The notes under the pieces are model-generated. The model ran no database searches. It was not told where the DNA came from and worked only from the letters and a program-made list of their open reading frames with translations. DNA of 64,000 bases from an uncultured Bacteroidales bacterium (GTDB taxonomy: Bacteria; Bacteroidota; Bacteroidia; Bacteroidales; Paludibacteraceae), in contig ONUF01000009.1 in the NCBI GenBank assembly GCA_900321005.1, positions 47,823 through 111,822 on the forward strand. The letters run 5' to 3'. Below are positions 1,352 to 62,774 of this stretch, in pieces (the stretch's first letter is position 1; each line of letters opens with the position of its first letter). Both the position numbers and the translations under genes were made by a program.

Positions 1352-1373
1352 TGATTACTGATTACTGATTACT
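1352..1373 (+). repeat. Heptanucleotide tandem repeat, TGATTAC x3
   Basis: Three perfect TGATTAC units fill almost the whole guaD-lplA gap, from just after the guaD stop to just before the lplA start. It belongs to the dispersed 7-nt repeat family seen throughout the window. Confidence 0.9.
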
Positions 1374-1375
1374 AA

Positions 1376-2011
1376 ATGCTGATAGCTCATTACCCCGAAG
1401 GGCTGGCTCTGATTGACTATTTGGATAAGGAGCAAGAATTAGTGAAGAGTGTCCAAGAACCGACACTCTTCACTTGGATTGTATCGCCGACGGTTATCTA
1501 CGGCCGGCATCAGAGCGCCGAGATAGAGGTGAACGAAGCCTACTGCCGCGAGCACGGCATCGCCGTCGTGCAGCGCAAGAGCGGGGGAGGGTGCGTCTAT
1601 GCGGACGAAGGTAACCTGATGATCTCGTATGTAGAGCCTTCAGATTTCAGTCGTCAGCATTCAGATCAGAACACCTTTGCGCGCTTCCTGGCGATGATGG
1701 CGCAAGCGCTGCAGGCCAAAGGACTGCCGGCGGTGACGACGGCGCATAATGACATATTGGTGGACGGAAGAAAAGTCTCCGGCTGCGCGTGCTTCACCGG
1801 CCCGACGGGCACTATCGTGCATGGCACCTTGCTCTACGACGTCAACCTCGAGGCGATGTTGCAGGCCCTCACGCCGGGCACCGACAAACTCGCCAAGCAC
1901 GGCGTAGCGTCCGTAAGACAGCGAGTGGCCAACCTCAGAGAGTTGACCACGGCTTTCGAATCCATTCACGCCTTACGCGCGTATATAGAAGGATATATAG
2001 GGGCGTTATAA
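1376..2011 (+). CDS. lplA: Lipoate-protein ligase A family protein, short form
   Basis: A 211-residue member of the biotin/lipoate ligase fold, expected to attach lipoate (or an octanoyl-type acyl group) to the E2 or GcvH lysine. The lipoyl-binding loop is RKSGGGCVY (about residues 67-75), and the conserved lysine lies in DGRKVSG (K133). The C-terminal accessory domain of full-length LplA is absent, as in many short homologues, so ligase and transferase activity cannot be separated by sequence. Two odd features lie in the coding sequence: a perfect 13-bp inverted repeat near the N-terminus and a 4-unit 7-nt repeat at 1639-1666. A gcvT gene elsewhere in the window fits a need for lipoylated GcvH. 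The last 6 bp overlap the convergent rsmG. Confidence 0.8.
   Translation: MLIAHYPEGLALIDYLDKEQELVKSVQEPTLFTWIVSPTVIYGRHQSAEIEVNEAYCREHGIAVVQRKSGGGCVYADEGNLMISYVEPSDFSRQHSDQNTFARFLAMMAQALQAKGLPAVTTAHNDILVDGRKVSGCACFTGPTGTIVHGTLLYDVNLEAMLQALTPGTDKLAKHGVASVRQRVANLRELTTAFESIHALRAYIEGYIGAL
1441..1474. repeat. Perfect 13-bp inverted repeat inside lplA
   Basis: AGTGAAGAGTGTC (1441-1453) is exactly mirrored by GACACTCTTCACT (1462-1474), with an 8-nt loop. It lies in the coding sequence around residues 22-33 and is not followed by a T run, so it is not an ordinary terminator. Confidence 0.85.
1639..1666 (+). repeat. In-frame 7-nt tandem repeat inside lplA
   Basis: Four degenerate units (TTCAGAT, TTCAGTC, GTCAGCA, TTCAGAT) encode a polar stretch around residues 88-98, after the lipoyl-binding loop. 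The reading frame is kept. Confidence 0.6.
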
Positions 2012-2620
2012 GGGCAAGTAGATGACTTGTTTGGTGGTAAACCACTCGCCTTTGAAGAACTGAGAGCAGGGGGTGACCTCTGCTTTTTTTATGAACGGCG
2101 CGATCTCTGCCTGCAGGTCGCCGCCTTTGAGGACGACCAGACCGTTCGGCACGGCATTGCGGTGCTTGTTTGACACGTTCTTGCGCACCAGCTTCACCAG
2201 GTCGGGCAGGGGCATCACGGCGCGCGAGACGACGAAGTCAAACTGCCGTTTCTCTTCCTCCGCCCGCTCCTGCTTGCACTCCACGTTCGTCAGGCCCAGC
2301 GCTGCCGCCACCTCCGATGCCACCTTGATCTTCTTGCCGATGGAGTCGATCAGCAGGAACTGACACTCCGGAAAGAGGATGGCCAAGGGGATTCCGGGAA
2401 AACCGCCGCCTGTGCCGACATCGAGGATGGTCGTGCCGGGCTGGAAAGGCAGCAGTTTGGCGATCGCGAGGGAATGGAGCACATGGTGCTCGTAGAGGTT
2501 GTCGATGTCCTTGCGGGAGATGACGTTGATCTTGCTGTTCCAATCCCGATAGAGCGCGTCAAGCGCAGCGAACTGCTGCGCCTGATGCGGGGTTAGTTTG
2601 AAATAATCGGAGATTATCAT
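2006..2620 (-). CDS. rsmG: 16S rRNA (guanine-527-N7)-methyltransferase RsmG
   Basis: A 204-residue SAM-dependent methyltransferase of the GidB/RsmG family, which modifies G527 of 16S rRNA; loss in other bacteria gives low-level streptomycin resistance. The SAM-binding motif is ILDVGTGGGFPG (about residues 65-76), followed by LLIDSIGKKIKVASEV and the FDFVVSRAVMPLPDL region typical of the family. Length is normal. Its ATG shares one base with the yebC stop (TAATG), so it is translationally coupled to yebC. The 3' end overlaps the convergent lplA by 6 bp. Confidence 0.93.
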   Translation of the reverse strand: MIISDYFKLTPHQAQQFAALDALYRDWNSKINVISRKDIDNLYEHHVLHSLAIAKLLPFQPGTTILDVGTGGGFPGIPLAILFPECQFLLIDSIGKKIKVASEVAAALGLTNVECKQERAEEEKRQFDFVVSRAVMPLPDLVKLVRKNVSNKHRNAVPNGLVVLKGGDLQAEIAPFIKKAEVTPCSQFFKGEWFTTKQVIYLPL

Positions 2621-3339
2621 TAATCCGCCAGGTTAGTGAACACATTCTGTACGTCTTCGTCCTCCTCGATCTTGTCGATGAGTTTCTGTACGGACTCACG
2701 TTGGTCTTCCGGCAGCTCTTTGGTGTCGTTCGGGATACGAACGAACTCCATCGACTGGATCTCGAAGCCGTTGTCCTCGAGGTACTTCTGCATGTTGATC
2801 GCCTCGTCGAAGTCGGAGTAGATGACGATGGTGTTCTCCTCCTCGTCCACGCCGAGTTCTTCTACGCCGAAGTCAATGAGCTCGAGTTCGAGTTCGTCCA
2901 GGTCGATACCGTCCTTCATCGTGACGGTGAAGCATGCCTTGCGGTCGAAGAGGAACTGGAGGCTGCCCTGCGTGCCGAGCGTGCCGCCGAACTTGGTGAA
3001 GTACGAGCGGATGTTGGCAACTGTACGCATGTGGTTGTCGGTTGCGGTCTCGACGAAGATAGCGATACCGTGCGGTCCGTAGCCTTCGTAGTTGATCTCC
3101 TTGTAGCCTTCGGACGACTTATCGGTGGCTTTCTTGATAGCGCGGTCGATGTTATCCTTCGGCATGTTCTCCCGCTTGCACTGCTGGATGAGTGCACGCA
3201 GACGCGGGTTGGAGTCCGGATCCGGTCCACCCTCGCGGGCTGCAATAGTGATTTCTTTTCCTAACTTGGTAAATGTGCGGGACATGTGTCCCCATCTTTT
3301 CAGTTTTGTCGCTTTGCGATATTCAAATGCGCGTCCCAT
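2620..3339 (-). CDS. yebC: YebC/PmpR family DNA-binding or translation-associated protein
   Basis: A 239-residue full-length YebC family protein. The N-terminal signature MGRAFEYRK...KRWGHMSR, the KLGKEITIAAREGGPDPDSN block and the CKRENMPKDNIDRAIKKA helix are all present, and the acidic middle and C-terminal domains follow. Family members are annotated as transcriptional regulators; more recent work links them to translation of difficult (for example proline-rich) sequences. It lies 17 bp downstream of the OmpA-like gene and overlaps rsmG by one base. Confidence 0.93.
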   Translation of the reverse strand: MGRAFEYRKATKLKRWGHMSRTFTKLGKEITIAAREGGPDPDSNPRLRALIQQCKRENMPKDNIDRAIKKATDKSSEGYKEINYEGYGPHGIAIFVETATDNHMRTVANIRSYFTKFGGTLGTQGSLQFLFDRKACFTVTMKDGIDLDELELELIDFGVEELGVDEEENTIVIYSDFDEAINMQKYLEDNGFEIQSMEFVRIPNDTKELPEDQRESVQKLIDKIEEDEDVQNVFTNLAD

Positions 3340-3356
3340 ATGTTAATATTTTATGA

Positions 3357-5837
3357 TTAATCTGCATGATCGAGGATGGTTTCGATATGTACTTCCTCGA
3401 AGGTGATGTTAAACTCTACGCGGCGGTTCTTCGCGCGTCCTGCCTTGGTGCTGTTATCCGCAATAGGCACGTCCGGACCGTAGCCGACAGCCGTCATGCG
3501 ATCCGCCGGAACACCCTTCTTGATCAGGTAGTCCATCACGGCATGCGCACGCTTGTCGGACAGTTTGCGGTTGACGGATTCCTTACCGACATTATCAGTA
3601 TGACCTTGTACCTCAATCAGGTAGTTGGTGTTCTCGATAAAGGTCTCTGCGATCTGGTCGAGCAGCGGGAAGGACCTCGACTTGATAGTCGCCTTGCCGG
3701 TCTCGAATTCGATACCTTGCATGGCTTTCTGGAGCAGCAGGCGTACCTCGCGTTTCACCTCCGGGCAGCCTTTATTGGCCTTCACACCCGCGGAGTACGG
3801 GCACTCGTCCTTATAGTCGGGCACACCGTCGCCGTCGCTGTCGAGTTCACAGCCGTGCTCATCCACGAAGCCGAGGGCTTCTATCGTGGTCTCCGGACAC
3901 TCGTCGAGGTAGTCGGGTACACCGTCGTCATCGCTGTCGAGCGGGCATCCGTCTTTGTCCACGAGGCCCCAAGCCGCTTCAGGCGTATCCGGGCACTTGT
4001 CCTTATAGTCGGGCACTCCGTCGCCGTCGGTATCGCGCGGACAACCTCTCTCGTCGAGGTAGATACCGAAGGACTCTCTCGGCGTGTTCGGACACTCGTC
4101 GAGGTAGTCGGGCACACCGTCCTCATCGGTGTCAAGCGGGCAACCTACGCTGTCCACCAACCCGATAGCGGCAGCCGGTGTACCAAGACAATGGTCGAGG
4201 TAGTCGGGCACTCCGTCGTGGTCTTCGTCCACAGGACAACCGACGCTGTCCACGGCTACGCCGCGCGGGGTCTCCGGACACATGTCGATCTTATCCCATA
4301 CGCCGTCTTTGTCGCTATCCTTGCGGTTCGTGCCCCAGCAGATAGAGAAGCCGATAGCGAGGTTAACCATCTTCGCCTTGTCCGGGATGACATACATGTT
4401 GCTGCCCGGCATCTTGGCATAGCTCGTCGGGATATAATCCATCGCGAGGGTGAGGTTGATACCGTCGTAAGGCATGAAACTCAGACCCGCGCCGATATTG
4501 CTGTACTTACCGTTGTTCATCAGCGAGTAGGTCGCCGCGATGTTAAACCAGTGTACGGGGCGGAAGGACAGACCGAAGGTCACCTCTTCGTACAGGCGGG
4601 CGTTATACAGGCGAGTAGCGGAGACGATACCTATGCCTACGCGGTTCTCCCAGAAATTGGCATCCAGACCGATATTCAGGCGCGCCGTCACCATCTTTGC
4701 GTAGCCGCGGCCGGTGGGGTGGAGAATGATGTTATTCGCCAGACCCATGATGTTATTGATCAGTGAATCCCCTAACGCTTGGGTGTTGAAACTGCCGTCC
4801 GGGTTGCGGTATGCCGGGTCACTGTAGTTGATATTTCCGAGGCCGTTGAAGGTGGTATCCATCGAGGCCGTGTATTTGCGGGAATTGGTCCAGTAGATAA
4901 ATCCGAGGTCGTTGATAGCACCCGTCACCTGGAGGTTCTCAATAGGCTTCCATGCAAAACCGAAGTCGATCGCTGCACCGTAGCCGCTGGGTTTGAGCAG
5001 ACTGAGGATATTATCCGTATTGATGATGTTGCTCAGCGAGGACTGACCGCTTGTGCCGCCCGTCTCTATGTCATGGATCACGTCTATCAGACGACGGCCA
5101 CCCATGTCGGGCAGCGCATCGAAATTGAGCGGACCTGCCATCTCGAGCGCCAGGTCGCCTTTGATACGCCACGCGTTGGTGCTGGCGTCGATACCGAGCA
5201 TCTTCGCCCGTCCCGACATATCCATCGTTCCCAAGAGGAACTTCAGTTTACCACCGATCGTCCAGTGTTCATCCAGACGGTGACTGTAGCCGGCACCTAT
5301 CTCCGTGTACATCGTACCTCCGGCACCGAAACCGGCGAGGTTAAACGAGTTCACGGCGCCCACGTTGAGGTTGGACATACCGCCGCCGAGCAGGAACTCA
5401 AATCCCGGTTTGGGTAGGGTTCCGCCGAGGTCGATGCGCTCGTTGATACCGATCATCAGATAGCCGTTCTCCTTGATGCGGAGACCCATGTTAAACCAAC
5501 TGAAGGTCATACTTCCGTCTATGAGCGTCATGCTGCGCAGCGAGCGGAGGAAAGCGCCTTTGTCGGCATCCGGGTGCAGCGGCGTGATGGTCCTGCCCGT
5601 AGCAGGATCCACGAACAGCACATCGCGCAGCGTGAGCGAGTTGTTACCGGCACTCATACTCGTCCAGCCGAGCGGAGTGAAGTTGATATATCCGCGGCTG
5701 ACAGGTTGGAGAGCAGGGTTGATGGTATGACGCATCGGTGCGTTCTCCAGAAAATAGAGCGTCGTCACCTGTTGTGCGCTCGCGCTGAGGGCTACGAGTG
5801 CCGCGAGGGCTACAAGAAACGATTGAATTTTTTTCAT
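3357..5837 (-). CDS. DUF5723-like outer-membrane protein with thrombospondin-3 repeats and OmpA domain
   Basis: An 826-residue exported protein. A signal peptide (MKKIQSFLVALAALVALSASAQ) is followed by a large beta-barrel-like region (about residues 25-500) resembling Bacteroidota DUF5723 proteins. Next come six thrombospondin type 3 repeats (DxDxDGVxDxxDxCP, about 506-690) that should bind calcium. A C-terminal OmpA peptidoglycan-binding domain contains FETGKATI and EVQGHTDNVG. The inferred role is a structural link between outer membrane and cell wall. It lies 13 bp after the lipoprotein gene, suggesting a shared envelope function. DUF assignment is from memory of the family; OmpA and TSP3 parts are clear. 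Confidence 0.8.
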   Translation of the reverse strand: MKKIQSFLVALAALVALSASAQQVTTLYFLENAPMRHTINPALQPVSRGYINFTPLGWTSMSAGNNSLTLRDVLFVDPATGRTITPLHPDADKGAFLRSLRSMTLIDGSMTFSWFNMGLRIKENGYLMIGINERIDLGGTLPKPGFEFLLGGGMSNLNVGAVNSFNLAGFGAGGTMYTEIGAGYSHRLDEHWTIGGKLKFLLGTMDMSGRAKMLGIDASTNAWRIKGDLALEMAGPLNFDALPDMGGRRLIDVIHDIETGGTSGQSSLSNIINTDNILSLLKPSGYGAAIDFGFAWKPIENLQVTGAINDLGFIYWTNSRKYTASMDTTFNGLGNINYSDPAYRNPDGSFNTQALGDSLINNIMGLANNIILHPTGRGYAKMVTARLNIGLDANFWENRVGIGIVSATRLYNARLYEEVTFGLSFRPVHWFNIAATYSLMNNGKYSNIGAGLSFMPYDGINLTLAMDYIPTSYAKMPGSNMYVIPDKAKMVNLAIGFSICWGTNRKDSDKDGVWDKIDMCPETPRGVAVDSVGCPVDEDHDGVPDYLDHCLGTPAAAIGLVDSVGCPLDTDEDGVPDYLDECPNTPRESFGIYLDERGCPRDTDGDGVPDYKDKCPDTPEAAWGLVDKDGCPLDSDDDGVPDYLDECPETTIEALGFVDEHGCELDSDGDGVPDYKDECPYSAGVKANKGCPEVKREVRLLLQKAMQGIEFETGKATIKSRSFPLLDQIAETFIENTNYLIEVQGHTDNVGKESVNRKLSDKRAHAVMDYLIKKGVPADRMTAVGYGPDVPIADNSTKAGRAKNRRVEFNITFEEVHIETILDHAD
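3795..4321 (-). repeat. Six thrombospondin-3 coding repeats
   Basis: About 90-100 bp tandem units inside the OmpA-like gene, each coding D-x-D-x-D-G-V-x-D-x-x-D-x-C-P. Units 2-6 share the GVPDY core and are close at DNA level, so copy number could vary by recombination. Confidence 0.85.
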
Positions 5838-7835: not shown

Positions 7836-9251
7836 TTATCTTAGGAGGTAGATTTTTTCGGTGGAGCGGGTGAGGGCGGTGTAGAGCCAGCGGAGGTACT
7901 CGCGGCGCTCGGCGGGGTCGGACATACGCGCCTCATCCTCGCCGATGCCGCTGGTGTCGATATAGACATGGCGCCACTGTCCGCCCTGCGCCTTATGGCA
8001 GGTGACGCAATAGGCATAGCGGATCTGGAGCGCATTATAATAAGGCGAGTCATAGACCGCTTTGACGAGGTCTTTCTTGTTGCGGATCTCCGGGAAGTCC
8101 TCGGCGATGCGCGCGAAGAGTTCGCGCTGCAGCGCGTAGTTGGCCTCGGGGCTGTCGGTGGTCAGCGTATCGAGCCATACGAGGGCTTCTATCTCCCAGT
8201 CATAATCGAGGGAACGCAGTTCGGCTTTCGCAAAATGAAAACCATAAAGCTCATGGACATTCGTCAGGCGCTGGATAGCCAGCATATCGCCGTTGGCGAG
8301 GAACTCGAGGTCCTTATAGTCCTTTGCCCAGAAATAGTTGTTCTTGCTGATCATCACCCGGTCGCCGTTCGACAGTTCGTCCTCTTTCCATAACACTCGC
8401 GCCCGCACGCCGCCGTTATAGAGGTTGGTCATCTTATTGCTGCGGGCGATGATAAGGGTCTCTTCGGGTCCGACGGTGCGCCAACTGGTCTCCAGGGTGT
8501 CGATGACGTCTTCGCCTTTGAGCTTGATGATATCGGCGTTAGGGGTCAAGGTGATCGGAGTATTCCGAGTATTCGGGGAATTCTGAGTATTCAGAAGATC
8601 CCGGAGGCGGGTGGCTTCGGAGAGGATGCCACTATCCAAAGTTTGCCGGGCAACTTTGGATAATTGATAATGGATGATTGATAATTGATAATTGGCGGCC
8701 ATATAGTCCGCATCAAGGGCGGGACTGGAGAGGTTGCCGACGGGGGGCAGTTGGGCATCGTCGCCGAGCAGGAGCAGGCTGCAGCCCTGGCCGCTATAGA
8801 CATAGCGCACAAGGTCGTCGAGCAGGCAGCCGCTACCGAAGGTAGGGTTATCGCGGGAGCCGGAGAGCATGGACGCCTCATCGACAATAAAGAGGGTACG
8901 TACATGCCGGTTGTCGGAGAGCGAGAAAGCCTCGACACCCAGTTGGTTCTGGCGGTAGATTTTTTTGTGAATCGTATAAGCGGGGAAGCCCGAGTAGCGG
9001 CTGAGGACCTTGGCGGCACGGCCGGTGGGGGCGAGCAGTACACAGGGTTGTTTTAGGCCGCCGAGCGCGCGGACGAGTGCACTCATCACGCTCGTCTTGC
9101 CGGTGCCGGCGTAGCCGCGGAGGATGAAGGCTTTGCGGTCATCACGGGACACGAGGAAGGCTCCGAGCGCCTTCAGCAAGCCCTCTTTCTCGTCGTTCGG
9201 TTGCCACGGCAATTCGGCCTTGATACGCGAAATAATAAATTCCTCCAACAT
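7836..9251 (-). CDS. RecD-like ATP-dependent DNA helicase (superfamily 1)
   Basis: A 471-residue helicase. The P-loop is LRGYAGTGKTSVM, motif II is LFIVDEASML, and the C-terminal UvrD/RecD-like part has TCHKAQGGQW and WLYTALTRSTEKIYLL. It probably unwinds DNA in repair or recombination; it lacks the long N-terminus of full RecD2. I chose ATG 9251 over an upstream GTG at 9290, because the extra 13 residues lie in the divergent promoter region of the SRP RNA. Two tandem repeats interrupt the coding sequence in frame (8558-8593, 8659-8693), both in loops between conserved motifs. Confidence 0.88.
   Translation of the reverse strand: MLEEFIISRIKAELPWQPNDEKEGLLKALGAFLVSRDDRKAFILRGYAGTGKTSVMSALVRALGGLKQPCVLLAPTGRAAKVLSRYSGFPAYTIHKKIYRQNQLGVEAFSLSDNRHVRTLFIVDEASMLSGSRDNPTFGSGCLLDDLVRYVYSGQGCSLLLLGDDAQLPPVGNLSSPALDADYMAANYQLSIIHYQLSKVARQTLDSGILSEATRLRDLLNTQNSPNTRNTPITLTPNADIIKLKGEDVIDTLETSWRTVGPEETLIIARSNKMTNLYNGGVRARVLWKEDELSNGDRVMISKNNYFWAKDYKDLEFLANGDMLAIQRLTNVHELYGFHFAKAELRSLDYDWEIEALVWLDTLTTDSPEANYALQRELFARIAEDFPEIRNKKDLVKAVYDSPYYNALQIRYAYCVTCHKAQGGQWRHVYIDTSGIGEDEARMSDPAERREYLRWLYTALTRSTEKIYLLR
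8558..8593 (-). repeat. In-frame 9-nt tandem repeat in the helicase gene
   Basis: Four units (GAGTATTCC, GAGTATTCG, GGGAATTCT, GAGTATTCA on the plus strand) encode an Asn/Thr/Pro-rich loop, NTQNSPNTRNTP. Confidence 0.85.
8659..8693 (-). repeat. In-frame 7-nt tandem repeat in the helicase gene
   Basis: Five GATAATT-like units (two variant) encode NYQLSIIHYQLS between the motif II-III region and the next helicase block. The same unit type recurs at 10787, 11426 and 15891. Confidence 0.9.
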
Positions 9252-9267
9252 TTTTTTACGAAAAAAC

Positions 9268-9298
9268 TTGCGTATGTCGAAAAAAAGCACTACCTTTG
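9268..9298 (+). promoter_or_regulatory. Promoter of the SRP RNA
   Basis: TTG at 9268-9270, 20 nt spacing, then TACCTTTG at 9291-9298: an exact Bacteroidota sigma-ABfr layout. The initiation region CACCCGC lacks the palindrome seen at some other promoters. Confidence 0.85.
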
Positions 9299-9319
9299 CA
9301 CCCGCTTTTGAGAGTTATA

Positions 9320-9414
9320 GGTAGGTGCTATACGACCAGCTCCCTCTGAACTCCCCCAGGTCTTGACCGAAGCAAGGGTAGGAGGTTGTAGCGGTGCGAT
9401 GTAGTTAGCCTACC
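9320..9414 (+). ncRNA. ffs: Signal recognition particle RNA, small bacterial (4.5S) type
   Basis: The terminal helix pairs GGTAGG (9320-9325) with CCTACC (9409-9414). Conserved SRP elements are present: GGTGCTATACGACCAGCTCC, TCTGAACTCCCCCAGG, AGCAAGGGTA and GGTTGTAGCGGTGCGAT. It binds Ffh and FtsY for co-translational membrane targeting. The symmetric loop (CAGG opposite AGCA, 9357-9360 and 9371-9374) is intact. The apical loop between C9362 and G9369 reads TTGACC, not the usual GGAA tetraloop on a CC/GG stem. The 5' end could lie up to about 15 nt upstream. The 3' end overlaps the last codons of the convergent subtilase gene. Confidence 0.92.
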
Positions 9415-9420
9415 TTTTTT
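9408..9420 (+). terminator. 3' end and T-run of the SRP RNA
   Basis: The 3' strand of the SRP terminal helix is followed directly by six T (9415-9420), an intrinsic terminator. It lies on top of the 3' end of the minus-strand subtilase gene (stop at 9410-9412). Confidence 0.75.
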
Positions 9421-10786
9421 GTGTGGTGACTAGGACTCCAGTCACTGTATAAGTCTTATCTCCTTTTATGATATATAGCTGACCGTCGCGGAGGAGCTTC
9501 TGATAACTGATTGCTGAATTCTGAATACTCTCTATGCCTGTCGGGATATTCATCGTGTAGGCTTTCCAGGCGTCGGGGATGCCGTAGCCGTACTGATAGT
9601 TCTCCGTGTCGGGGTTGTCGTAGCGGTCGGCCGAACGGAGAATACGCTCGCGGATCTGCATGGCGTTCTCGTCGGGCAGTGCGGACCACAGGGCCGCGGC
9701 AAAACCTGCCAAGAGGGGCGTCGCAAAACTGGTGCCATTGGATTGCACGACGGCATTGTTATGGTTGATGAGGGTGGTCTTGACACCTACCGCGCACACC
9801 TCGGGTTTGATACGCCCGTCGGAGGTAGGTCCGTAGCTGGAGAAATACCCGATCGTACCGGCGGTGTTGACTGCTCCTACGGTGAGCGTACTGTCGGCAT
9901 CGCCCGGGATACCTAAGGTATGGGGCGGATTGCCCAACTCATCACCTTCATTGCCCGCGGCGATGCATACGAGCATACCTTTGCGCGCAGCGATGGTAGC
10001 CGCCCGGCTGCAGCGCGTGCTGCGTCCGTCAAAAGCGGACTTAGGGAGATTCCATGCGGGGTTGTCAAACCGGAAATAACCTAAAGAGACGGAGAAGACA
10101 TTCACGCCGAGCGAGTCGGCTGTCTCGAGCGCCGCTACGAGGTTATCCATCTCCTTCGGACTCTCGGTATCGTTCTCTTCGGAGCGCATGAGGTAATACT
10201 GCGCCTTGGTGGCTGCGCCGTAGAAGTCATAGCCGTACTTATCATCATCGGTGAAGTCAAAATGACCGAGTTCCAGTTCTTTCTGCCGGAAACACTCGAC
10301 CTTATCGGCGTTATAAAACCCGCCGTCGCATATCGCCATGAGAATACCCTGGCCCTCAAAGCCGGCGTCGTGCAAGGTCAGCAGGTTATACAGCGCGAGT
10401 TGCTCATCGGTGTAGGCACCCGGGATGTCCGAGCTCTGCTCGCGTTTGCGCGCCAGGCGCTTGGGCAGGTACAGGTCGGGCTCCGTCTCATCGCGCGTCA
10501 TCTCGACGGAGGTGACGCACTTGAGCTCCGCCACTTTGGCTGCGGTCTGTTCGTCCATCTCGACGGTCGCGCCGTTGAACCAGCGGCTCTTGTGCATGAT
10601 CTTTCCTCCGGCCTCGCGCACCTTATTGAGGTACATCGGACTGACGGGGTAGTCCATGTTGTCGGTAGGGATATTCCACTTGGCGCGTTGTTCTACTGCC
10701 CGCGGAGAGAGTTGCGGGGCTGTTTTCTCGGGTTTATCCGTGAAGGTCACGAAATAAACGGAAAGGATGATTAATAAATTAATCAT
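9410..10786 (-). CDS. Subtilisin-like (S8) protein lacking the catalytic histidine segment
   Basis: A 458-residue exported S8 family protein: hydrophobic start, propeptide-like region, then the subtilase domain. Catalytic Asp (ILMAICDGGF, D154), oxyanion Asn (CIAAGNEGD, N279) and Ser (SNGTSFATP, S353) are present. The His segment (HGTxVLS) expected between about residues 180 and 195 is missing; the sequence runs DDKYGYDFYGAATKAQ straight into YYLMRSEEN. No HG dipeptide occurs anywhere. The C-terminus (LYIIKGDKTYTVTGVLV) resembles a type A T9SS sorting domain, fitting porD, porE and porT in this window. It is probably inactive as a protease unless the gap is a sequence error. It is the last gene of the long minus-strand run. 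Confidence 0.8.
   Translation of the reverse strand: MINLLIILSVYFVTFTDKPEKTAPQLSPRAVEQRAKWNIPTDNMDYPVSPMYLNKVREAGGKIMHKSRWFNGATVEMDEQTAAKVAELKCVTSVEMTRDETEPDLYLPKRLARKREQSSDIPGAYTDEQLALYNLLTLHDAGFEGQGILMAICDGGFYNADKVECFRQKELELGHFDFTDDDKYGYDFYGAATKAQYYLMRSEENDTESPKEMDNLVAALETADSLGVNVFSVSLGYFRFDNPAWNLPKSAFDGRSTRCSRAATIAARKGMLVCIAAGNEGDELGNPPHTLGIPGDADSTLTVGAVNTAGTIGYFSSYGPTSDGRIKPEVCAVGVKTTLINHNNAVVQSNGTSFATPLLAGFAAALWSALPDENAMQIRERILRSADRYDNPDTENYQYGYGIPDAWKAYTMNIPTGIESIQNSAISYQKLLRDGQLYIIKGDKTYTVTGVLVTTQKR
9500..9527 (-). repeat. In-frame 7-nt tandem repeat in the S8 gene
   Basis: Four units (CTGATAA, CTGATTG, CTGAATT, CTGAATA) encode the linker SIQNSAISYQ between the subtilase domain and the C-terminal sorting-type domain. 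Confidence 0.85.
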
Positions 10787-10814
10787 ATTGATGATTGATT
10801 ATTGATGATTGATT
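10787..10814 (-). repeat. Intergenic 7-nt tandem repeat between rlmD and the S8 gene
   Basis: ATTGATG and ATTGATT alternate for four units. They start at the base after the S8 start codon and run into the rlmD stop (TAA at 10813-10815), so the repeat is the whole intergenic gap. Confidence 0.92.
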
Positions 10815-12156
10815 ATTTGAGTTCCAGTTGTACGACATTCTCGACATGCTGGGTGTGCGGGAACATGTCCACGGGTTGGACACGCGTCACGCGGTATTTG
10901 GCATCGAGCAGGGCGAGGTCTCGCGCCTGGGTGGCGGGGTTACAGCTGACATAGACGATGCGTTGCGGCGCGGCGTTGAGAATGACGTTGACCACATCCT
11001 CGTGCATGCCGGCGCGGGGCGGGTCGGAGTTCACTTTCGCGTCCTCGATGGCTTCGGGCACATACTCAATACCGATGACCTGACGGGCCTGCCGGGCGAC
11101 GAAATTGGCTATCGTTCCCGTGCCTGTATAGAGATCATAAACCAAAGGTTTAGTGTTGAGTGAATGAGTGTTGAGTGAATGAGGTTCGAAGGCAAATTCT
11201 CTCGCTACTTTGTAGAGTTCGTAAGCCTGCTCGGTGTTGGTCTGGTAGAACGATTTCGGACCGACCTTGAACTGCAAGCCTTCCATCGTCTCCATGATAT
11301 GGTCCTGACCGAAATAGGTCTTGACCTCCAGGTCGCCAATCGTGTCGTTGAACTTCGTGTTCTCGACATACATGAGGGAGACTATTTCCGGAAAATCTTC
11401 ATGAAGTTTTTCCAGAAAATTGCAGATTGTTGATTGATTATTGATGATTGGTTCTCCAAACGAGACGACGAGCATGAGTTCGCCCTTATGGTTATTGCGG
11501 AGGATGAGGTTGCGGAGCAGGCCCTCGTGCGTGTGTTCGTTATAGAACGTGAGTCCGTGCGTCCGCGCATACTCGCGCACAGCGTTGCGGATGCGGTTGT
11601 TGATATCCGGCATGAGGTGGCACTCCTCTATATCCAGCACTTTGTCGAAGCAGTTAGGGATGTGGAATCCGAGGCCGTAGGTGCTGTCCACTTTGTCGAG
11701 TCCTCCGGCGGCTTCGATGACTTCCCACGGGAACCACTTGCGGTCGGCGCAGGTGAACTCGAGTTTGTTGCGATACTCGTATATATGCTTGGAGCCGAGG
11801 ATAGGGCTTATCTCCGGCAGTTCGATCTTGCCGATGCGGGTGAGGTTATCGACGATCTGCTGCTGTTTGTACTTGAGTTGTTCGTCGTAGGGCAGGATCT
11901 GCCATTTACATCCTCCGCATACACCGAAATGTTTGCAGCGCGCCTCGCAGCGCACAGGGCTCGGCGTGACGAGTCGCAGCACTTTCGCCTCCATGAAGGA
12001 GTGCTTCTTCTTCGTGATCTGCAAGTCCACGATATCCCCCGGCACGCAGTTCGGCACGAAGGTGACGATATCGTTGATACGCACCAGAGCTTTGCCTTCG
12101 GCGGCTACACCGGTGATCTCAACCTGCTCGTATATAGGTAAGTTCTTCTTTTTCAT
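10813..12156 (-). CDS. rlmD: 23S rRNA (uracil-C5)-methyltransferase, RumA/RlmD type, with internal deletion
   Basis: A 447-residue RNA methyltransferase. An N-terminal TRAM domain is followed by Fe-S cysteines in CKHFGVCGGCKW. Motif I is YDLYTGTGTIANF and the catalytic Cys lies in VYVSCNPATQARDL. Between IEDAKVNS and DPPRAGM about 35-40 residues usual for this family are absent, including the segment that contacts the SAM adenine. Two in-frame tandem repeats sit elsewhere in the gene. Activity is therefore doubtful unless the deletion is an assembly fault. I chose ATG 12156, which overlaps the upstream gene stop as ATGA, over a GTG five codons earlier. Confidence 0.85.
   Translation of the reverse strand: MKKKNLPIYEQVEITGVAAEGKALVRINDIVTFVPNCVPGDIVDLQITKKKHSFMEAKVLRLVTPSPVRCEARCKHFGVCGGCKWQILPYDEQLKYKQQQIVDNLTRIGKIELPEISPILGSKHIYEYRNKLEFTCADRKWFPWEVIEAAGGLDKVDSTYGLGFHIPNCFDKVLDIEECHLMPDINNRIRNAVREYARTHGLTFYNEHTHEGLLRNLILRNNHKGELMLVVSFGEPIINNQSTICNFLEKLHEDFPEIVSLMYVENTKFNDTIGDLEVKTYFGQDHIMETMEGLQFKVGPKSFYQTNTEQAYELYKVAREFAFEPHSLNTHSLNTKPLVYDLYTGTGTIANFVARQARQVIGIEYVPEAIEDAKVNSDPPRAGMHEDVVNVILNAAPQRIVYVSCNPATQARDLALLDAKYRVTRVQPVDMFPHTQHVENVVQLELK
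11152..11181 (-). repeat. In-frame 15-nt perfect duplication in rlmD
   Basis: AGTGTTGAGTGAATG occurs twice exactly, coding HSLNT-HSLNT just before the SAM-binding motif. Each 15-mer itself looks like a 7+8 repeat (GAGTGTT, GAGTGAAT). Confidence 0.9.
11426..11453 (-). repeat. In-frame 7-nt tandem repeat in rlmD
   Basis: Four ATTG-led units (ATTGTTG, ATTGATT, ATTGATG, ATTGGTT) encode EPIINNQS in a loop of the central domain. Confidence 0.85.
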
Positions 12157-14453: not shown

Positions 14454-14997
14454 CACTCAGGTCGGTGTTGCTCTTACGGTTTGCCAGTTCCGCCTCTTGG
14501 TAGGACTTGAGCAGGTCAGCCGCCATCTTAGCCTGGTAGCCCTCGACGATGTCATAGTCTTTGGCGTCGTTCTCCTTGAAGACCACGCGCACCTTGATGA
14601 CAGCCGTTCCGGCCTTGAGTTTGTCAATCACTTCCGGCACTACCTCATAGGAGGTGATAGTCTCGTAGTACGAGATGGTGGCATTACCGTTCTTCTTGGT
14701 GTACTTGTTCTTCTGCACCTCCGATCCCGCTGCGCGGTTAAGACGAACAGCCTTGCCGTCCGCAAAACGGATGAGGACACGGGACGCGTCGGTGAACTCA
14801 TTGTAGGCGTTGACATTCACGGTCTTGACGAGCAGCGTCGTGACGTCCTGACCGTCCTTGTGCTCTTGGCAGAAGGCGATCTGCGGCTTGAGGTTCTTGT
14901 TTACAGAATTGTCCACGTGGATAAACTTACCGCGCTCGGCGGCACTCATCGTAAGTACTGACAACACAGCCAGCAACAACATACATACTTTTTTCAT
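14440..14997 (-). CDS. Exported protein of unknown function
   Basis: A 185-residue protein with a clear signal peptide (MKKVCMLLLAVLSVLTMSAAE). The mature part is charged and probably beta-rich, with no known motif. It starts in the ATGA overlap with the TraB-like gene and its end overlaps the amidase-like gene by 14 bp, so the three are coupled. It may be a periplasmic or outer-membrane accessory protein. Confidence 0.75.
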   Translation of the reverse strand: MKKVCMLLLAVLSVLTMSAAERGKFIHVDNSVNKNLKPQIAFCQEHKDGQDVTTLLVKTVNVNAYNEFTDASRVLIRFADGKAVRLNRAAGSEVQKNKYTKKNGNATISYYETITSYEVVPEVIDKLKAGTAVIKVRVVFKENDAKDYDIVEGYQAKMAADLLKSYQEAELANRKSNTDLSDEDF

Positions 14998-15899: not shown

Positions 15900-15918
15900 T
15901 GATGATTGATTATTGATC
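15891..15918 (-). repeat. 7-nt tandem repeat at the TPR/TraB-like junction
   Basis: ATTGATC, ATTGATG, ATTGATT, ATTGATC. It spans from the TPR gene stop (TGA at 15917-15919) to the TraB-like start codon (15897-15899), so both signals lie in repeat units. Confidence 0.92.
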
Positions 15919-17878: not shown

Positions 17879-17880
17879 TG

Positions 17881-24009: not shown

Positions 24010-24012
24010 TCC

Positions 24013-24044
24013 CTAATTCTCTAATTCACTAATTCACTCATTCA
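24013..24044 (-). repeat. 8-nt tandem repeat between porD and recN
   Basis: CTAATTCT, CTAATTCA, CTAATTCA, CTCATTCA fill the gap and cover the porD stop (TGA at 24038-24040). Confidence 0.88.
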
Positions 24045-26019: not shown

Positions 26020-26033
26020 ATGTTTGATTTTAT

Positions 26034-26104
26034 TATGCTTGTTTATGCTTGTTTATGCTTGTTTATGCAGGGTTCATGCAGGGTTTATGCAGGGTTTATG
26101 CAGG
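26034..26104 (-). repeat. Two-phase tandem repeat (10-nt x3, then 11-nt x3)
   Basis: TATGCTTGTT three times, then ATGCAGGGTTT-type units three times, sharing the TATGC core. The 11-nt part encodes the last residues of AroE (ACINPA) and its stop; the 10-nt part fills the gap to the DUF4831 gene. Confidence 0.92.
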
Positions 26105-43292: not shown

Positions 43293-43337
43293 TGTGTGAT
43301 GTGTGATGTGTGATGTGTGATGTGTGATGGGTGATGG
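43289..43337 (+). repeat. 7-nt tandem repeat GTGATGT/GTGATGG x7
   Basis: Seven units with no interruption. The first holds the stop (TGA 43290-43292) of the upstream gene and the last holds the ribF start (ATG 43334-43336); the whole leader between them is repeat. Confidence 0.95.
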
Positions 43338-53279: not shown

Positions 53280-54203
53280 ATGAATATAAATATAAACTAT
53301 CCAATACCCAATACCTTCGGCATCGACGCCAAGGCGCGGTTGTTCATCGAGTACTACTCGCTGGATGAGTTGCGGCAGGTGCTGAAGGAGCATAAAGGCG
53401 AACAAATCCTGCATATCGGGCAGGGTTCTAACTTGCTCTTTACCAAGGACTTCGACGGTGTTATCCTGCATTCCGGCATGGCGCGGGCGAAGTTCCTCGA
53501 CGACGAGACGGTAGAGGCGCAGAATGGCCTGAGGCTCGACGATCTCATTGCCCAACTGACGGACATGCAGTATTGCGGCATGGAGAAACTGAGTCTCATC
53601 CCGGGCGAAGTGGGTGCGTCGGCGGTGCAAAATGTCGGCGCGTACGGCTGTGAGGCCAAAGACGTGATAGAGCGCGTCTATACACTCGAGGTCGAGACTC
53701 TCGAAGAGCGCGTGTTTACCAATGCCGAATGCAAGTTCGGCTACCGCGACAGCGCCTTCAAGCATGAACTGAAAGGCAAGTATATCGTTACATCGGTCGT
53801 TTATAAAGTGAAGCCGGGCGATGCGACCAATACCCGTGAAGAGATCATAGAGACCCGTAATGGCAAGCTTCCGAAAGTAGGCGAAGTCGGTTCGGCGGGT
53901 TCGTTCTTCATGAATCCCTTTGTGCCGGAAGAGCAAGCGAACGAACTGCTCAAGCAATACCCGGACATGCCGCATTTTGAGACACCGCAAGGCGTGAAGA
54001 TTCCCGCCGCATGGCTTATCGAGCAATGCGGATGGAAAGGCAAGACGCTCGGCGGCGCGCAGGTATGGCCCAAACAACCGCTGGTCATCGTCAACGCCAA
54101 CCACGCTACCGCACAAGATATCATCGACCTCGCAGTTGCCGTCAGCGCGAGCGTCAAAGAGAAATTCGGCATATGTATTTCGCCAGAGGTGAACTACATA
54201 TAA
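53280..54203 (+). CDS. murB: UDP-N-acetylenolpyruvoylglucosamine reductase, compact form
   Basis: A 307-residue FAD enzyme of peptidoglycan precursor synthesis. FAD-binding HIGQGSNLLF and SLIPGEVGASAVQNVGAYG, then FGYRDSAFK, the catalytic Ser in GSAGSFFMNP, and the Glu in ISPEVNYI. Between VVYKVKPGDATN and TREEIIETRNGKLP about 25 residues present in typical Bacteroides MurB are missing; the catalytic residues all remain, so the enzyme may be active. It lies directly upstream of murA, from which only a 7-nt repeat separates it. Confidence 0.92.
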   Translation: MNININYPIPNTFGIDAKARLFIEYYSLDELRQVLKEHKGEQILHIGQGSNLLFTKDFDGVILHSGMARAKFLDDETVEAQNGLRLDDLIAQLTDMQYCGMEKLSLIPGEVGASAVQNVGAYGCEAKDVIERVYTLEVETLEERVFTNAECKFGYRDSAFKHELKGKYIVTSVVYKVKPGDATNTREEIIETRNGKLPKVGEVGSAGSFFMNPFVPEEQANELLKQYPDMPHFETPQGVKIPAAWLIEQCGWKGKTLGGAQVWPKQPLVIVNANHATAQDIIDLAVAVSASVKEKFGICISPEVNYI

Positions 54204-54231
54204 ACATTACACATTAAACATTCCACAATAT
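54204..54231 (+). repeat. 7-nt tandem repeat that is exactly the murB-murA gap
   Basis: ACATTAC, ACATTAA, ACATTCC, ACAATAT: 28 nt from the base after the murB stop to the base before the murA ATG. Confidence 0.9.
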
Positions 54232-55539
54232 ATGGCTACATTTGTAATCGAAGGAGGACATAAACTGCATGGTTCCATCACCCCGCAAGGCGCGAAGAAC
54301 GAAGCGCTGCAGGTGCTTTGCGCCGTGTTGCTCACCAAGGAAACGGTAGTCATCAACAACCTGCCTGACATCCTTGATGTCAATAACCTCATCGACCTCA
54401 TCGCTTCGATGGGCGTGACGGTGGAGAAACTCGCGAAAGGCAAGTACGCCTTCACGGCCCGTAACCTCGACACAGCTTATCTGCGCAGCGCGGATTTCCT
54501 CAAGAAATGCAATAAACTGCGCGGCTCGGTCATGTTTATTGGTCCGTTGTTGGCACGTCTGGGCGAGGTGACTTACGCCAAACCCGGCGGAGACAAGATC
54601 GGCCGTCGCCGTCTTGACACGCATTTCCAGGGAATGGTGAACCTCGGTGCGAGCTTTGAGTACGACCATGACTTGCTCGCTTATCGTTTTGAAGGAAAGC
54701 ACCTCAAAGGCAGTTACATGTTGCTCGACGAAGCATCTGTGACCGGAACGGCGAATATCATCATGGCGTCTGTGCTCGCCGAAGGCACGACGACGATCTA
54801 TAACGCAGCCTGCGAACCGTACTTGCAGCAACTATGCAAACTCCTCAACGCCATGGGAGCGAAGATCAGCGGAGTAGGGTCTAACCTCCTGACGATAGAA
54901 GGTGTGAAAGAACTGCACGGCGCGCAACACACGCTCCTGCCGGATATGATTGAAGTGGGTTCGTTCATCGGCATGGCGGCTATCACAGGTTCGGAACTGC
55001 GTATCCGAAATGTCGGCTATCGCGACCTCGGCATCATCCCCGATGCCTTCCGCCGGCTTGGTATCCGCATTGACGTGGACGGCGATGATATCATCATCCC
55101 TGCCCAGGAACACTACCAGATAGAGTCTTTCCTCGACGGCTCCATCCTCACGGTAGCAGACGCACCGTGGCCGGGTCTCACGCCGGACTTGCTCTCCGTA
55201 TTACTGGTTGTTGCCACCCAAGCGAAAGGAACGGTTCTTATCCACCAGAAGATGTTTGAGTCGCGTCTGTTCTTCGTGGACAAACTGATTGACATGGGTG
55301 CGCAAATCATCCTCTGCGACCCGCATAGAGCGGTTGTTGTCGGCCATGACCATCAGCGACAGCTCAAACCCAATAACATGACCAGTCCTGACATCCGTGC
55401 GGGTATCGCCATGCTTATCGCTGCCATGAGTGCCGAAGGTACCAGTAAGATCGACCATATCGATCAGATTGACCGTGGCTACGAAGACATCGAGCATCGT
55501 CTCAACGCCATCGGCGCTAAGATTCGACGCGAAGAATAA
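54232..55539 (+). CDS. murA: UDP-N-acetylglucosamine 1-carboxyvinyltransferase with Asp in place of the catalytic Cys
   Basis: A 435-residue MurA, first committed step of peptidoglycan synthesis. It has GAKNEALQVL (K22, N23), the active loop YAKPGGDKIGRRRLDTHF, and SFIGMAAITGSELRI. The position of the fosfomycin-target Cys (C115 in E. coli) is Asp121. Asp at this position is known to give fosfomycin insensitivity in Mycobacterium and Chlamydia MurA; the same is expected here. The gene ends at a bidirectional terminator. Confidence 0.95.
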   Translation: MATFVIEGGHKLHGSITPQGAKNEALQVLCAVLLTKETVVINNLPDILDVNNLIDLIASMGVTVEKLAKGKYAFTARNLDTAYLRSADFLKKCNKLRGSVMFIGPLLARLGEVTYAKPGGDKIGRRRLDTHFQGMVNLGASFEYDHDLLAYRFEGKHLKGSYMLLDEASVTGTANIIMASVLAEGTTTIYNAACEPYLQQLCKLLNAMGAKISGVGSNLLTIEGVKELHGAQHTLLPDMIEVGSFIGMAAITGSELRIRNVGYRDLGIIPDAFRRLGIRIDVDGDDIIIPAQEHYQIESFLDGSILTVADAPWPGLTPDLLSVLLVVATQAKGTVLIHQKMFESRLFFVDKLIDMGAQIILCDPHRAVVVGHDHQRQLKPNNMTSPDIRAGIAMLIAAMSAEGTSKIDHIDQIDRGYEDIEHRLNAIGAKIRREE

Positions 55540-58914: not shown

Positions 58915-59844
58915 TCATTTTTTGTTCTCGTACTTATCCAAAGCCTCGTTCATGATCTTCTTGCCGTCGGCAATGATCTGTTCGGCTTTGTCGAAGTCGA
59001 AGGTGTTATAGGCGTACTGTCGCATCACGGCGTGTACGTCGGGTGGGGTGAGACGCAGCGAGAGAAGGGTGTTCTGCTGGATCTGGATGTCGCTCATGCG
59101 GTCGAGCAGCGAGACGAAACTGACCTTGCGGCCCAAGTCCCTGGCGCGTTGCTCCAATATATTGTCCACGCGCTTGCCTAACGAGCGTAACTGTTGCTCC
59201 CAGGATTTAGGCACAGGAATGCCGCTCTTCTTTACTTCCGCCAGTTTGCCTTCCACGTCAATCGGTTCATACACCTCTTCTATCGGCATGCTGTCCTTGC
59301 CGCTGATGTCGGCCGCCACGAGGATATCTCCGGGCGTGCGCTCTATCACATGCAGCGGCAGCGGGTTCAGAATACCGCCGTCTATGAGCAGGCGTTTGCC
59401 TATCTGCACGGGTTTGAAGAACAGCGGAATACTGATCGACGCACGTACAGCCTCAAAGAGGCTTCCTTTGCGGAATACCACTTCGTCCGAATGAATCATA
59501 TCGGTCGCGACGATCGTGCAGGGGATGTTCAATTGCTCTATCGGTCGGTCCGGCACTACTTTTTCCAACTCCTTGATGATGCGTTCTCCTTTGACAAGCG
59601 AGTTCCCGCTAAGCAGGTTGATATCCATCATGCGGAGTATTAGCTGCTTGTCAACGCTTAAGAACCAGTCTTTAGCCTCTTTGAGTTGCCCCGCGGCGTA
59701 CATGCCGGCGATGATCGAACCCATCGAACAGCCGGCTATACTCGTGATGGTATAACCCCGTTCCTCGAGAGCCTCTATCGCACCGATATGCGCTAATCCG
59801 CGCGCACCGCCCGATCCCAAAACCAACGCTACATTCTTTGACAT
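58915..59844 (-). CDS. Patatin-like phospholipase
   Basis: A 309-residue cytosolic or membrane-associated serine hydrolase. Oxyanion loop LGSGGARGLAHIG, nucleophile in GCSMGS (S40), dyad Asp in LLIDGGILNPLP. It resembles the RssA/YlbK group. It precedes the two acyl-CoA synthetase genes by 33 bp, so released fatty acids could be activated by them (inference). Its start follows a pure 7-nt repeat. Confidence 0.88.
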   Translation of the reverse strand: MSKNVALVLGSGGARGLAHIGAIEALEERGYTITSIAGCSMGSIIAGMYAAGQLKEAKDWFLSVDKQLILRMMDINLLSGNSLVKGERIIKELEKVVPDRPIEQLNIPCTIVATDMIHSDEVVFRKGSLFEAVRASISIPLFFKPVQIGKRLLIDGGILNPLPLHVIERTPGDILVAADISGKDSMPIEEVYEPIDVEGKLAEVKKSGIPVPKSWEQQLRSLGKRVDNILEQRARDLGRKVSFVSLLDRMSDIQIQQNTLLSLRLTPPDVHAVMRQYAYNTFDFDKAEQIIADGKKIMNEALDKYENKK

Positions 59845-59846: not shown

Positions 59847-59902
59847 AATCAACAATCATCAATCATCAATCATCAATCATCAATCAACAATCAACAATCA
59901 TA
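59847..59902 (-). repeat. 7-nt tandem repeat AATCATC/AATCAAC x8
   Basis: The longest in the window: eight units fill the gcvT-patatin gap and include the gcvT stop (59898-59900). Confidence 0.95.
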
Positions 59903-60998
59903 CCTGCTTCGCCGGGACGAGTTTCTCTCGTATCCGGACGAAGATGATCTCGCCTTTCTTCGCGAACTCGGTCTTCACATAGCCCATGCCGATGCCGACT
60001 TTCGTGTTCGGCAGCATGATGCCGGAGGTCACATTACCGATCGTGTTGCCCGCTTCGTCGCATATCTCATAGCCGTTACGCGGGATCGCGCGCTCCAAAC
60101 ACTCGAAATGCACCAGTTTGCGCTTCACGCCTTCCGCTTTCTGCTTGCGCAGGAAATCGCGGTCGATGAAGTCCTTGGCATCAAGTTTCGTGATCCAACC
60201 CAGACCGGCCTCGAGCGGCGAAGTGGTATCGTCGATATCGTGTCCGTACAGGCAATACCATTTCTCCAGACGCAAGCTGTCGCGAGCACCCAGACCTATC
60301 GGTGCGAGGCCGAACGGTTTGCCTACTTCGAACAGCGCATCCCATATCTGTTTGCCTTTGTCTGCCGGGAAATAGAGTTCAAAACCTCCTGCGCCGGTGT
60401 AGCCCGTGTTGCTGAGAATAACACCCGGCACGCCCGCAAAACTCCATTCGCGGAATGCATAGTAGTCAATCGACTTCAAATCGGCGTCGGTCAGCAGTTG
60501 CAGCAACTCGACCGCTTTCGGTCCCTGAACCGCCAATTGACCATAACGCTCAGAAGCATTCTCGAGTTTGAGGTCTCCCCAGTCGCTCCGCATGGAAGGC
60601 TCGCCTCCGGATGCTATCCGGTTGACCCATGCCCAGTCTTTGTCGATATTGCCGGCATTGACCACCATCAGGTATTTCGTCGTCGAGTATTTATAGATGA
60701 TCAGGTCATCGACAATACCGCCTTTGCCGTTGGGCATGCAGGTGTACTGCGCCTTACCGGCGGCAATGACCGACAGGTCGTTGGTCGTGATGTATTGCAG
60801 AAAATCCAAGGCATTCTCACCTTTTACCCAGAACTCGCCCATATGGCTCACATCGAACACACCGACGCCCTCGCGAACGATCATGTGCTCTTGGTTAATA
60901 CCCGTAGGGTATTGAATCGGCATGTTAAAGCCTGCGAACTCTGCCATCTTTGCGCCTAACGCAATATGGATGTCTGTAAACGGAGTTGTTTTTAACAT
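59898..60998 (-). CDS. gcvT: Aminomethyltransferase (glycine cleavage T protein)
   Basis: A 366-residue T protein transferring the aminomethyl carbon to tetrahydrofolate. It has [47 protein letters not shown] and the C-terminal barrel [19 protein letters not shown]. Complete. It follows pepT with one base between, an order also usual in Bacteroides. The other glycine cleavage genes are not in the window. Confidence 0.95.
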
Positions 60999-60999
60999 A

Positions 61000-62175: not shown

Positions 62176-62199
62176 CTAGGATAAAATTTATCTATGTTT

Positions 62200-62727
62200 T
62201 TACTTTCCAAACAAGGAGAGGAGGGAACTGATGGACGAAGCGTACTGAGCCGCGGTGTTGGCGTACGAAGCGGCAGAATTGGCGCCTTCTTGTACTTTGC
62301 TCGTTGCGTTCTGTACGGTCTCGTTGGCCTTTACCATATCTACGAGGCTGTTCGTCACGGTCTGCACATTGTTCTGCGTTACCAGACCGAGCGACGAAGC
62401 GATCATACCTTTACCGAACTCCTTCAGATAGGTCTTGTCTTTGTAGTTCTCTTTCAGGCCCTCGCAGTTAGCGACGAGCGTCACGGTGTTGAGCACATTC
62501 TGCATGTTCTTGTAGTCGTACTTGCCGTCGGCTTTATACTGCGTGTACAGCGCCTGCAGCGCGTTACCTGCGCCCTGACCCGCTGAAACGGCTGCGTTAC
62601 CCGTCTGCGTCGTTTTCTGACTGCTGACTACTGATTGCTGATTACTACTACTGTTACTCGTGCTGTTCTGCATGAATCCGCAACTTACCATCATGATGGC
62701 GGTTGCAAAAAGAATGATTTTTTTCAT
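62200..62727 (-). CDS. Small lipoprotein of unknown function
   Basis: A 175-residue lipoprotein (MKKIILFATAIMMVSC, Cys 16). The linker after the cysteine is Ser/Asn/Gln-rich and partly made of a 7-nt repeat. The rest is helical, with ALQALYTQYKADGKYDYKNM, a hydrophobic end (SSISSLLSLFGK) and no recognised motif. It lies 24 bp upstream of pepT. Confidence 0.75.
   Translation of the reverse strand: MKKIILFATAIMMVSCGFMQNSTSNSSSNQQSVVSSQKTTQTGNAAVSAGQGAGNALQALYTQYKADGKYDYKNMQNVLNTVTLVANCEGLKENYKDKTYLKEFGKGMIASSLGLVTQNNVQTVTNSLVDMVKANETVQNATSKVQEGANSAASYANTAAQYASSISSLLSLFGK
62617..62644 (-). repeat. In-frame 7-nt tandem repeat in the lipoprotein gene
   Basis: CTGACTG, CTGACTA, CTGATTG, CTGATTA, coding NQQSVVSSQ in the linker behind the lipid anchor. 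Confidence 0.9.
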
Positions 62728-62733
62728 ATTATT

Positions 62734-62774
62734 AAACTTTTAAACTTATAAACATTACACATTACACATTACAC
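62734..62774 (-). repeat. Tandem repeats between the dehydrogenase and lipoprotein genes
   Basis: AAACTTTT, AAACTTAT, then ATTACAC three times. The last unit contains the dehydrogenase stop (62769-62771). Confidence 0.88.

Follow-up and report, generated by a model that had tools for sequence, protein, structure and literature searches.

In cyanobacteria, short tandemly repeated repetitive (STRR) sequences consist of degenerate heptamers that stand in tandem and are dispersed through the genome, and to our knowledge the origin of bacterial heptamer repeats has been open since they were described. Over-representation of heptamers in bacteria has already been published (PMC4679880, PMC4692102). 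PMC4679880 states that long simple sequence repeats (LSSRs) with 7-nt units exceed expectation (Mrazek et al., 2007, as told there) and that TAACTGA repeats, for which control of the translation of the downstream gene has been proposed in Beggiatoaceae, occur in five Bacteroidetes, while PMC4692102 describes prominent GGGAATC-type arrays at different genes in two species. Among the open-access papers listed, no account of the arrays described below was found for Bacteroidales, an absence there that does not equal absence in print. The DNA analysed here, referred to as the window, is a stretch of 64,000 nt (positions 47,823 to 111,822 of contig ONUF01000009.1, assembly GCA_900321005.1) from an uncultured Bacteroidales bacterium of the Paludibacteraceae, and it carries tandem heptamer arrays at many places. 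At the orthologous sites that were compared, the position of an array often persists while its unit differs between species. The heptamer arrays point to an active, little-studied mutation process.

The source genome is a 2.12-Mb draft, 78% complete, from what is probably a gut-dwelling bacterium, and the genomes compared with it (G numbers; their loci bear L numbers) are drafts, one per species. Tandem repeats were called with Tandem Repeats Finder (TRF) at a score of at least 30 in the window and of at least 40 in a sample of the source genome comprising 684,618 of 2,118,770 bases, window included. The window yielded 17 rows of period 7 at 16 distinct places, two rows overlapping at 62617-62658, and also arrays with periods of 8, 9, 10, 11 and 15 nt. 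Copy numbers were 3.3-5.3 in 13 of the 17 rows, 2.1-2.3 in two, and 6.9 and 7.9 in the remaining two. Exact lag-7 runs of at least 12 matches numbered six in the window, compared to a mean of 0.0 across 20 dinucleotide shuffles. The sample of the source genome contained 100 period-7 arrays (146/Mb) and three shuffles of it none; 7 was the commonest period, followed by 11 (19 arrays), 8 (18), 9 (16), 10 (10) and 6 (one). A preliminary description of the window, made from the sequence alone, had named a series of heptamer units, usually in four copies, together with 8- to 11-nt versions. TRF recovered the named units, the copy number and the longer versions, with period 15 in addition, and the excess over shuffled sequence proved to be large. 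The description had also held that different units occur at different places, and the units are indeed many (47 distinct units in 102 arrays).

Four orthologous sites were compared between species, namely the junction between gcvT and a patatin gene, the leader of a MurA-like gene, a segment of a helicase-like gene and a loop of a protein which we take to be CoaBC-like, and at each of them near relatives carry other units or none. For the gcvT/patatin junction, 40 loci were assembled (30 taken from 167 matching genomes and 10 near ones of 30), 39 of which were readable. The results showed that the gap ranges from -1 to 68 nt, with an overlap or a 2-nt gap in five loci and a gap of 14-68 nt in 34; the latter are mostly filled by 7- or 8-nt arrays, with units such as GTGTAAG, AGTCGAA, GGTTACA, GTTGAGA and GTCGTTA. 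The closest pair (G150/G199, 99.2% identity) has a gap of 23 nt in both members. Gap lengths differ in G170/G021 (94.6% identity; 61 versus 68 nt), G142/G182 (94.3%; 29 versus 14 nt), G098/G168 (92.4%; 23 versus 15 nt) and G003/G189 (91.6%; -1 versus 23 nt), so that some close pairs differ by one unit, by a 15-nt unit or by an entire array. By eye, the first unit often includes the Val and stop codons, and the DNA upstream of the patatin gene in distant congeners is unrelated and shows no arrays.

Among the 30 MurA-like leaders listed, 23 lie within the genus, and by eye 12 of these 23 carry arrays, five are bare stop-start junctions and six are unclear; none of the seven leaders from other families shows an array by eye. 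The units within the genus differ, for example CTGAATA, CAATAGT, AATTGTA and AAATCGT. The helicase gene was matched in 34 of 37 genomes, and 30 orthologs (16 near, 14 distant) were cut out. Without a shuffle control, a lag-7 score of at least 15 of 21 was found at the same codons in 11 of the 16 near orthologs and in none of the 14 distant ones. The units in the near orthologs include CAATTAT, TTTCAAC, CAGTTAT and GGTTACG, and one ortholog changes from GGTTACG to CAGTTAT along its array. The length of the segment is 117-120 nt in 29 of the 30 orthologs, and the hydrophobic pattern is largely kept. Several helicase orthologs were flagged for one stop within the match.

The CoaBC-like gene was matched in 94 of 101 genomes, and 30 loci were cut out. 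Arrays were detected in eight of the 30 loops, two of the eight lying at the score threshold and no shuffle control being included, and the frame is open in all 30. The unit is AATCAGC in the source genome, TACACCN in G098 and G143, and CAGTNTT-like in G006, G003 and G032, while G036 has a 7+8 array and G035 an 8-nt array. The array-bearing segments measure 60-81 nt and the 22 segments with no array 48-57 nt. An insert of about 140 nt, structured in appearance and absent from the source genome, was seen in G098 and G143 (L322, L323), with no Rfam match for L322. Taken together, gain, loss, change of copy number and change of unit were all found when orthologous sites were aligned between species, which argues for the active process that the preliminary description had assumed.

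We hold, at about even confidence, that replication errors acting locally, preferentially in steps of 7 nt and more rarely of 8, 10, 11 or 15 nt, give rise to the arrays and rewrite them. This reading draws on the period-7 excess, the unit-step differences in some close pairs, the presence or absence of arrays and the changed units at kept positions, with the unit-step length differences between species (e.g., in the gcvT/patatin pairs) as a possible sign of slippage. The nascent strand would slip back by about 7 nt and recopy, repeated slips would gain or lose units, and a slip with later realignment could overwrite the adjoining unit with no net change in length, resulting in homogenization in place. 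Slippage related to a 7-nt polymerase contact was proposed by Mrazek et al. (2007), as told in PMC4679880. Selection would then decide which arrays survive, keeping those that are harmless or useful.

The arrays of the window are as follows, with arrays called by TRF, open reading frames (ORFs) by our own crude caller and gene families by Pfam.
1344-1373, plus strand: TGATTAC, 4.1 copies, running from the stop codon of an amidohydrolase gene (79-1350) up to where a lipoyl-ligase-family gene (1376-2011) starts (TRF, Pfam).
8659-8694, minus strand: CAATTAT in the coding sense, 5.1 copies, within the helicase-like ORF 7836-9290 (AAA_30, UvrD_C_2 and PIF1 matches).
10786-10817, minus strand: 7/14-nt array of CAATCAT/CAATAAT (sense), separating a tRNA-U5-methyltransferase-family gene (10813-12171) from a subtilase gene (9410-10786).
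11148-11183, minus strand: 7/8/15-nt array within the same methyltransferase-family ORF, its 15-nt period exact.
11425-11450, minus strand: GATTGAT, 3.7 copies (TRF), within the same ORF.
14348-14370, minus strand: CTCTGTA (sense), 3.3 copies, close to the 5′ end of an amidase-family ORF (12153-14456).
15891-15921, minus strand: 7-nt array, ATTGATC on the plus strand, 4.4 copies, where a TPR gene (15917-17890) meets a TraB-family gene (14994-15920).
17818-17847, minus strand: CTCTGTA (sense), 4.3 copies, in the 5′ part of the TPR ORF; this imperfect 30-nt array was found again at L135:18425-18454, and by eye the array common to both places perhaps encodes part of a signal peptide.
24008-24049, minus strand: 8-nt array, ATTCACTA on the plus strand, 5.2 copies, at the junction of a DUF4835 gene (24038-24943) and an SMC_N-family gene (22432-24009).
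26033-26104, minus strand: 10-nt TTATGCTTGT adjoining 11-nt GTTTATGCAGG (both on the plus strand), flanked by a shikimate-dehydrogenase-like gene (26085-26831) and a DUF4831 gene (24940-26019).
34507-34539, plus strand: ACTTTCC, 4.7 copies, in a short ORF according to the caller, by eye probably non-coding.
43289-43336, plus strand: GTGATGT, 6.9 copies, immediately upstream of a riboflavin kinase/FAD synthetase gene (43331-44188).
54196-54232, plus strand: ACATTAC, with a MurB_C-domain gene (53280-54203) on one side and, on the other, an EPSP-synthase-family gene (54232-55539), which we infer to be the MurA-like gene.
59847-59901, minus strand: TGATTGA (AATCATC on the plus strand), 7.9 copies, from the stop of the GCV_T gene (59898-60998) to the start of the patatin gene (58915-59844).
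62617-62658, minus strand: 7-nt array, CTGACTG/CTGATTA on the plus strand, in the 5′ part of ORF 62200-62727.
62732-62774, minus strand: 8-nt TTAAACTT and 7-nt ACATTAC, between a 2-hydroxyacid dehydrogenase gene (62769-63743) and ORF 62200-62727.

Two further features were recorded in the window. A match to the Bacteroidales small signal recognition particle RNA (Rfam RF04183, 104 bits) lies on the plus strand at 9312-9419, and tandem repeats of 195 and 99 nt occupy 3798-4157 within ORF 3357-5837 (minus strand); by eye they resemble Asp-rich calcium-binding repeats.

Genes, starts and the assignment to gap or coding sequence were all defined by the same ATG-based caller. The result showed that 56 of the 100 arrays of the source genome have at least 30% of their length within the 8.0% of the sequence that is non-genic and that most of the others lie inside ORFs, in agreement with the description of arrays in both operon gaps and coding sequence. 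Contingency loci, in which changes in copy number switch genes on or off, would account for the unit-step length differences between relatives, and 7-nt steps would shift the frame inside genes. However, about half of the arrays are intergenic and housekeeping-type families are found among the array-adjoining genes of the window, and we regard this explanation as very unlikely.

Fifty-four arrays with a score of at least 36 were placed in gaps shorter than 150 nt, comprising 47 in co-directional, four in convergent and three in divergent gaps; the junctions available in the sample number 304, 52 and 32, respectively. In the co-directional gap arrays the median start lies 4 nt ahead of the stop codon's end, and 27 of the 47 cover this codon; the median end lies 2 nt upstream of the next called start. 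Their mean G+C content is 0.27, and all three frames are closed in the sense direction in 36 of the 47 and in the antisense direction in 19. In the source genome, the sequence following gap arrays (40 nt) shows less structure than controls (-4.65 versus -6.99). In a 324-kb part of the sample, lag 7 was raised in co-directional gaps (0.340 versus 0.279), as were lags 8, 14 and 21, and it was not elevated in eight divergent and 12 convergent gaps; in the six convergent gaps of seven congener loci, lag 7 was elevated. Under the reading of local replication errors, a junction array beginning at a stop codon would close every frame and give the next start a leader low in G+C. Bacteroidetes initiate translation without Shine-Dalgarno pairing, from leaders of low G+C content and little structure, perhaps via S1 (PMC3155529), and low-G+C arrays just 5′ of starts fit this mode of initiation. 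It is also conceivable, although unlikely, that the arrays are selected signals bound by a protein or RNA that is particular to the genome and has co-evolved with the unit, for example in controlling translation of the downstream gene. The species-specific units, the junction arrays immediately 5′ of starts with their sense-strand stops and the similar placement of the TAACTGA repeats (PMC4679880) are consistent with such signals. However, a unit class can occur in both orientations to the next gene (one sense and one antisense among the AATCANC junction arrays; also in G143) and within coding sequence, and some species have no array at the orthologous junction.

Coding arrays mostly have their A+C-richer strand in the coding sense (34 of 40), and the encoded peptides are of the NQQSAIS or NHQSSII type. 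Open-frame versions would be expected to persist in tolerant segments of genes. For most coding arrays examined, no ortholog was found within the samples. An element composed of an array and a hairpin was considered and rejected: a 3′-side hairpin accompanies 14 of 47 coding arrays of the source genome compared to 26 of 470 controls (Fisher p 1.6e-6), but two of 33 compared to 20 of 330 controls in five other genomes. A first count under another orientation scheme had given 15 of 40 on the right and six of 40 on the left. The hairpin at the helicase site falls in conserved codons and that at the CoaBC-like site is common to relatives with another unit, and no such element is therefore claimed. 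The 3′-side hairpins of the source genome differ in sequence (e.g., L137:18486, L147:15105 and L146:18289).

The genus is represented by 178 genomes, the source genome included, and the congener samples span 40-140 kb. Beside the 146/Mb of the source genome, period-7 arrays reach 179/Mb in G032, 150 in G030 (40 kb only), 103 in G007, 79 in both G002 and G017, 10 in G029 and 8 in G033. In G029 and G033 (L165-L169, L171-L176), a single 7-nt array per genome stands against 10 and eight arrays of period 11, respectively. Seven separately assembled loci, placed in the group solely for their MurA-like identity of 75-93%, contain 21 arrays in 104 kb (201/Mb); the records of relatives in this identity range are titled uncultured Bacteroidales or Paludibacteraceae, and two come from horse faeces. 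Among nine genomes from other families of the order, G060 has 60/Mb, G038 has 20/Mb and the others none. Across 73 loci of other taxa, Flavobacteria included, 44 arrays were found (34.5/Mb), with at least one array in 24 loci, and 50 kb of Escherichia coli contained none. A period-7 array was present in 18 of the 37 genomes that were sampled over short stretches (3.9-12.7 kb).

The two units tested proved to be genome-specific. The pattern (AATCANC)3 has 64 matches in the source genome and 47 in G106 and is absent from 85 of the 178 genus genomes, whereas (TACACCN)3 has 84 matches in G175, 71 in G117 and two in the source genome and is absent from 109; matches overlap within arrays, 31 in the sample of the source genome corresponding to 14 loci. 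A reversed-pattern control gave no match in these four genomes and was common in a few others (11-27 matches in G073, G128, G151, G188 and G089), in which it is another genome-specific unit. In 173 arrays from six genomes, identical units within genomes formed 195 pairs compared to a mean of 106 under permutation of labels (0 of 1000 permutations reached this value), and with the source genome left out 26 compared to 8.2 (again 0 of 1000); pairs less than 5 kb apart in one piece were excluded, base composition was uncontrolled and neighbouring contig pieces were treated as separate loci. Loci of one genome therefore share units more than loci of different genomes, which qualifies the description of different units at different places.

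Several observations weigh against local replication errors as the explanation. This sharing of units and the extreme differences between species in the counts of the two patterns are among them, because slippage acting independently at each site would not be expected to yield genome-specific units; so is the CoaBC-like loop, where the source genome and G098/G143 carry unrelated units although the proteins are 92/91% identical. Moreover, only about 15% of co-directional junctions carry an array and some species lack arrays at sites where others have them, implying that a leader function is optional at best. The co-directional excess is modest (47 arrays at 304 junctions compared to seven at 84, raw counts), and samples of G057, G051, G054, G059, G044, G043 and G055, from other families, contain no period-7 arrays. 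The preference of a genome for certain units is unexplained by slippage, which has to be supplemented either by a bias specific to the genome or by copying from locus to locus.

Such copying is the essence of a second explanation, tentative but to be taken seriously, in which heptamer families are mobile: arrays would seed others elsewhere by ectopic template switching or conversion, so that a few unit families colonize the genome and overwrite old arrays. Genome-specific units do occur on many contigs, and in G143 the TACACCT unit is found twice, once in the CoaBC-like loop and once at the gcvT junction, where its orientation is opposite to that of the gene. However, the order of unit variants is not common to different loci beyond unit-shuffled controls (10 pairs at k=22 versus a null mean of 8.35; k=16-24 alike), no shared flanks were seen, and first units often match the local stop codon (gcvT junction, by eye). 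Block copying between loci was not supported, as an excess obtained with flanks came from array edges and was gone when array interiors only were used; the spreading of arrays that the preliminary description had offered as an alternative to their making did not, in this respect, find support. A reverse transcriptase or other templated enzyme that writes the units would yield a genome-specific repertoire from its template, and the source genome has one RVT_1 match. This explanation is highly improbable, since no RVT_1 match was found in 30 of 41 draft (incomplete) genomes, the array-rich G032, G007 and G017 among them. It is possible, although we propose it with reserve, that a trans-acting process rewrites dispersed arrays, resulting in a species "vocabulary" of units with which kept positions, codons of conserved proteins included, are overwritten, a form of concerted evolution of very short dispersed repeats.

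With one genome for each of 178 species, the genus represents a large natural experiment on the origin of heptamer repeats, in which the origin of genome-specific units becomes testable. The comparisons suggest that repeat turnover can quickly rewrite protein segments and operon junctions.

With cyanobacterial STRRs, the arrays share dispersed, degenerate heptameric units in tandem, a likeness of anatomy. They are also LSSRs, in that tandem units of 5-11 nt exceed expectation (100 arrays versus none in three shuffles), but differ from the 7-nt LSSRs in that the unit changes between species at a given set of orthologous codons or a given junction and in that the repertoire of units varies among the species of one genus. 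The TAACTGA repeats of Beggiatoaceae likewise lie directly 5′ of starts with stop codons in the repeat; that system has one unit, related heptamers being rarely or never repeated (PMC4679880), whereas many units occur here (47 distinct units in 102 arrays), one of which, ACTGATT, is by hand comparison one base off a TAACTGA rotation. The GGGAATC and GGGGA(C/T)T heptamers of Xanthomonas and Nostoc resemble the present arrays in genome-wide dispersal, mostly four units and degenerate positions, but they are G-rich, were studied as one unit class, and are 89-93% intergenic and nearer the 5′ ORF (PMC4692102). The present arrays are A+T-rich, with about half outside gaps and 47 units; the commonest units of the source genome have no G-tract, and its junction arrays have 27% G+C. 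The arrays described here are thus an extreme variant of the known over-representation of heptamers.

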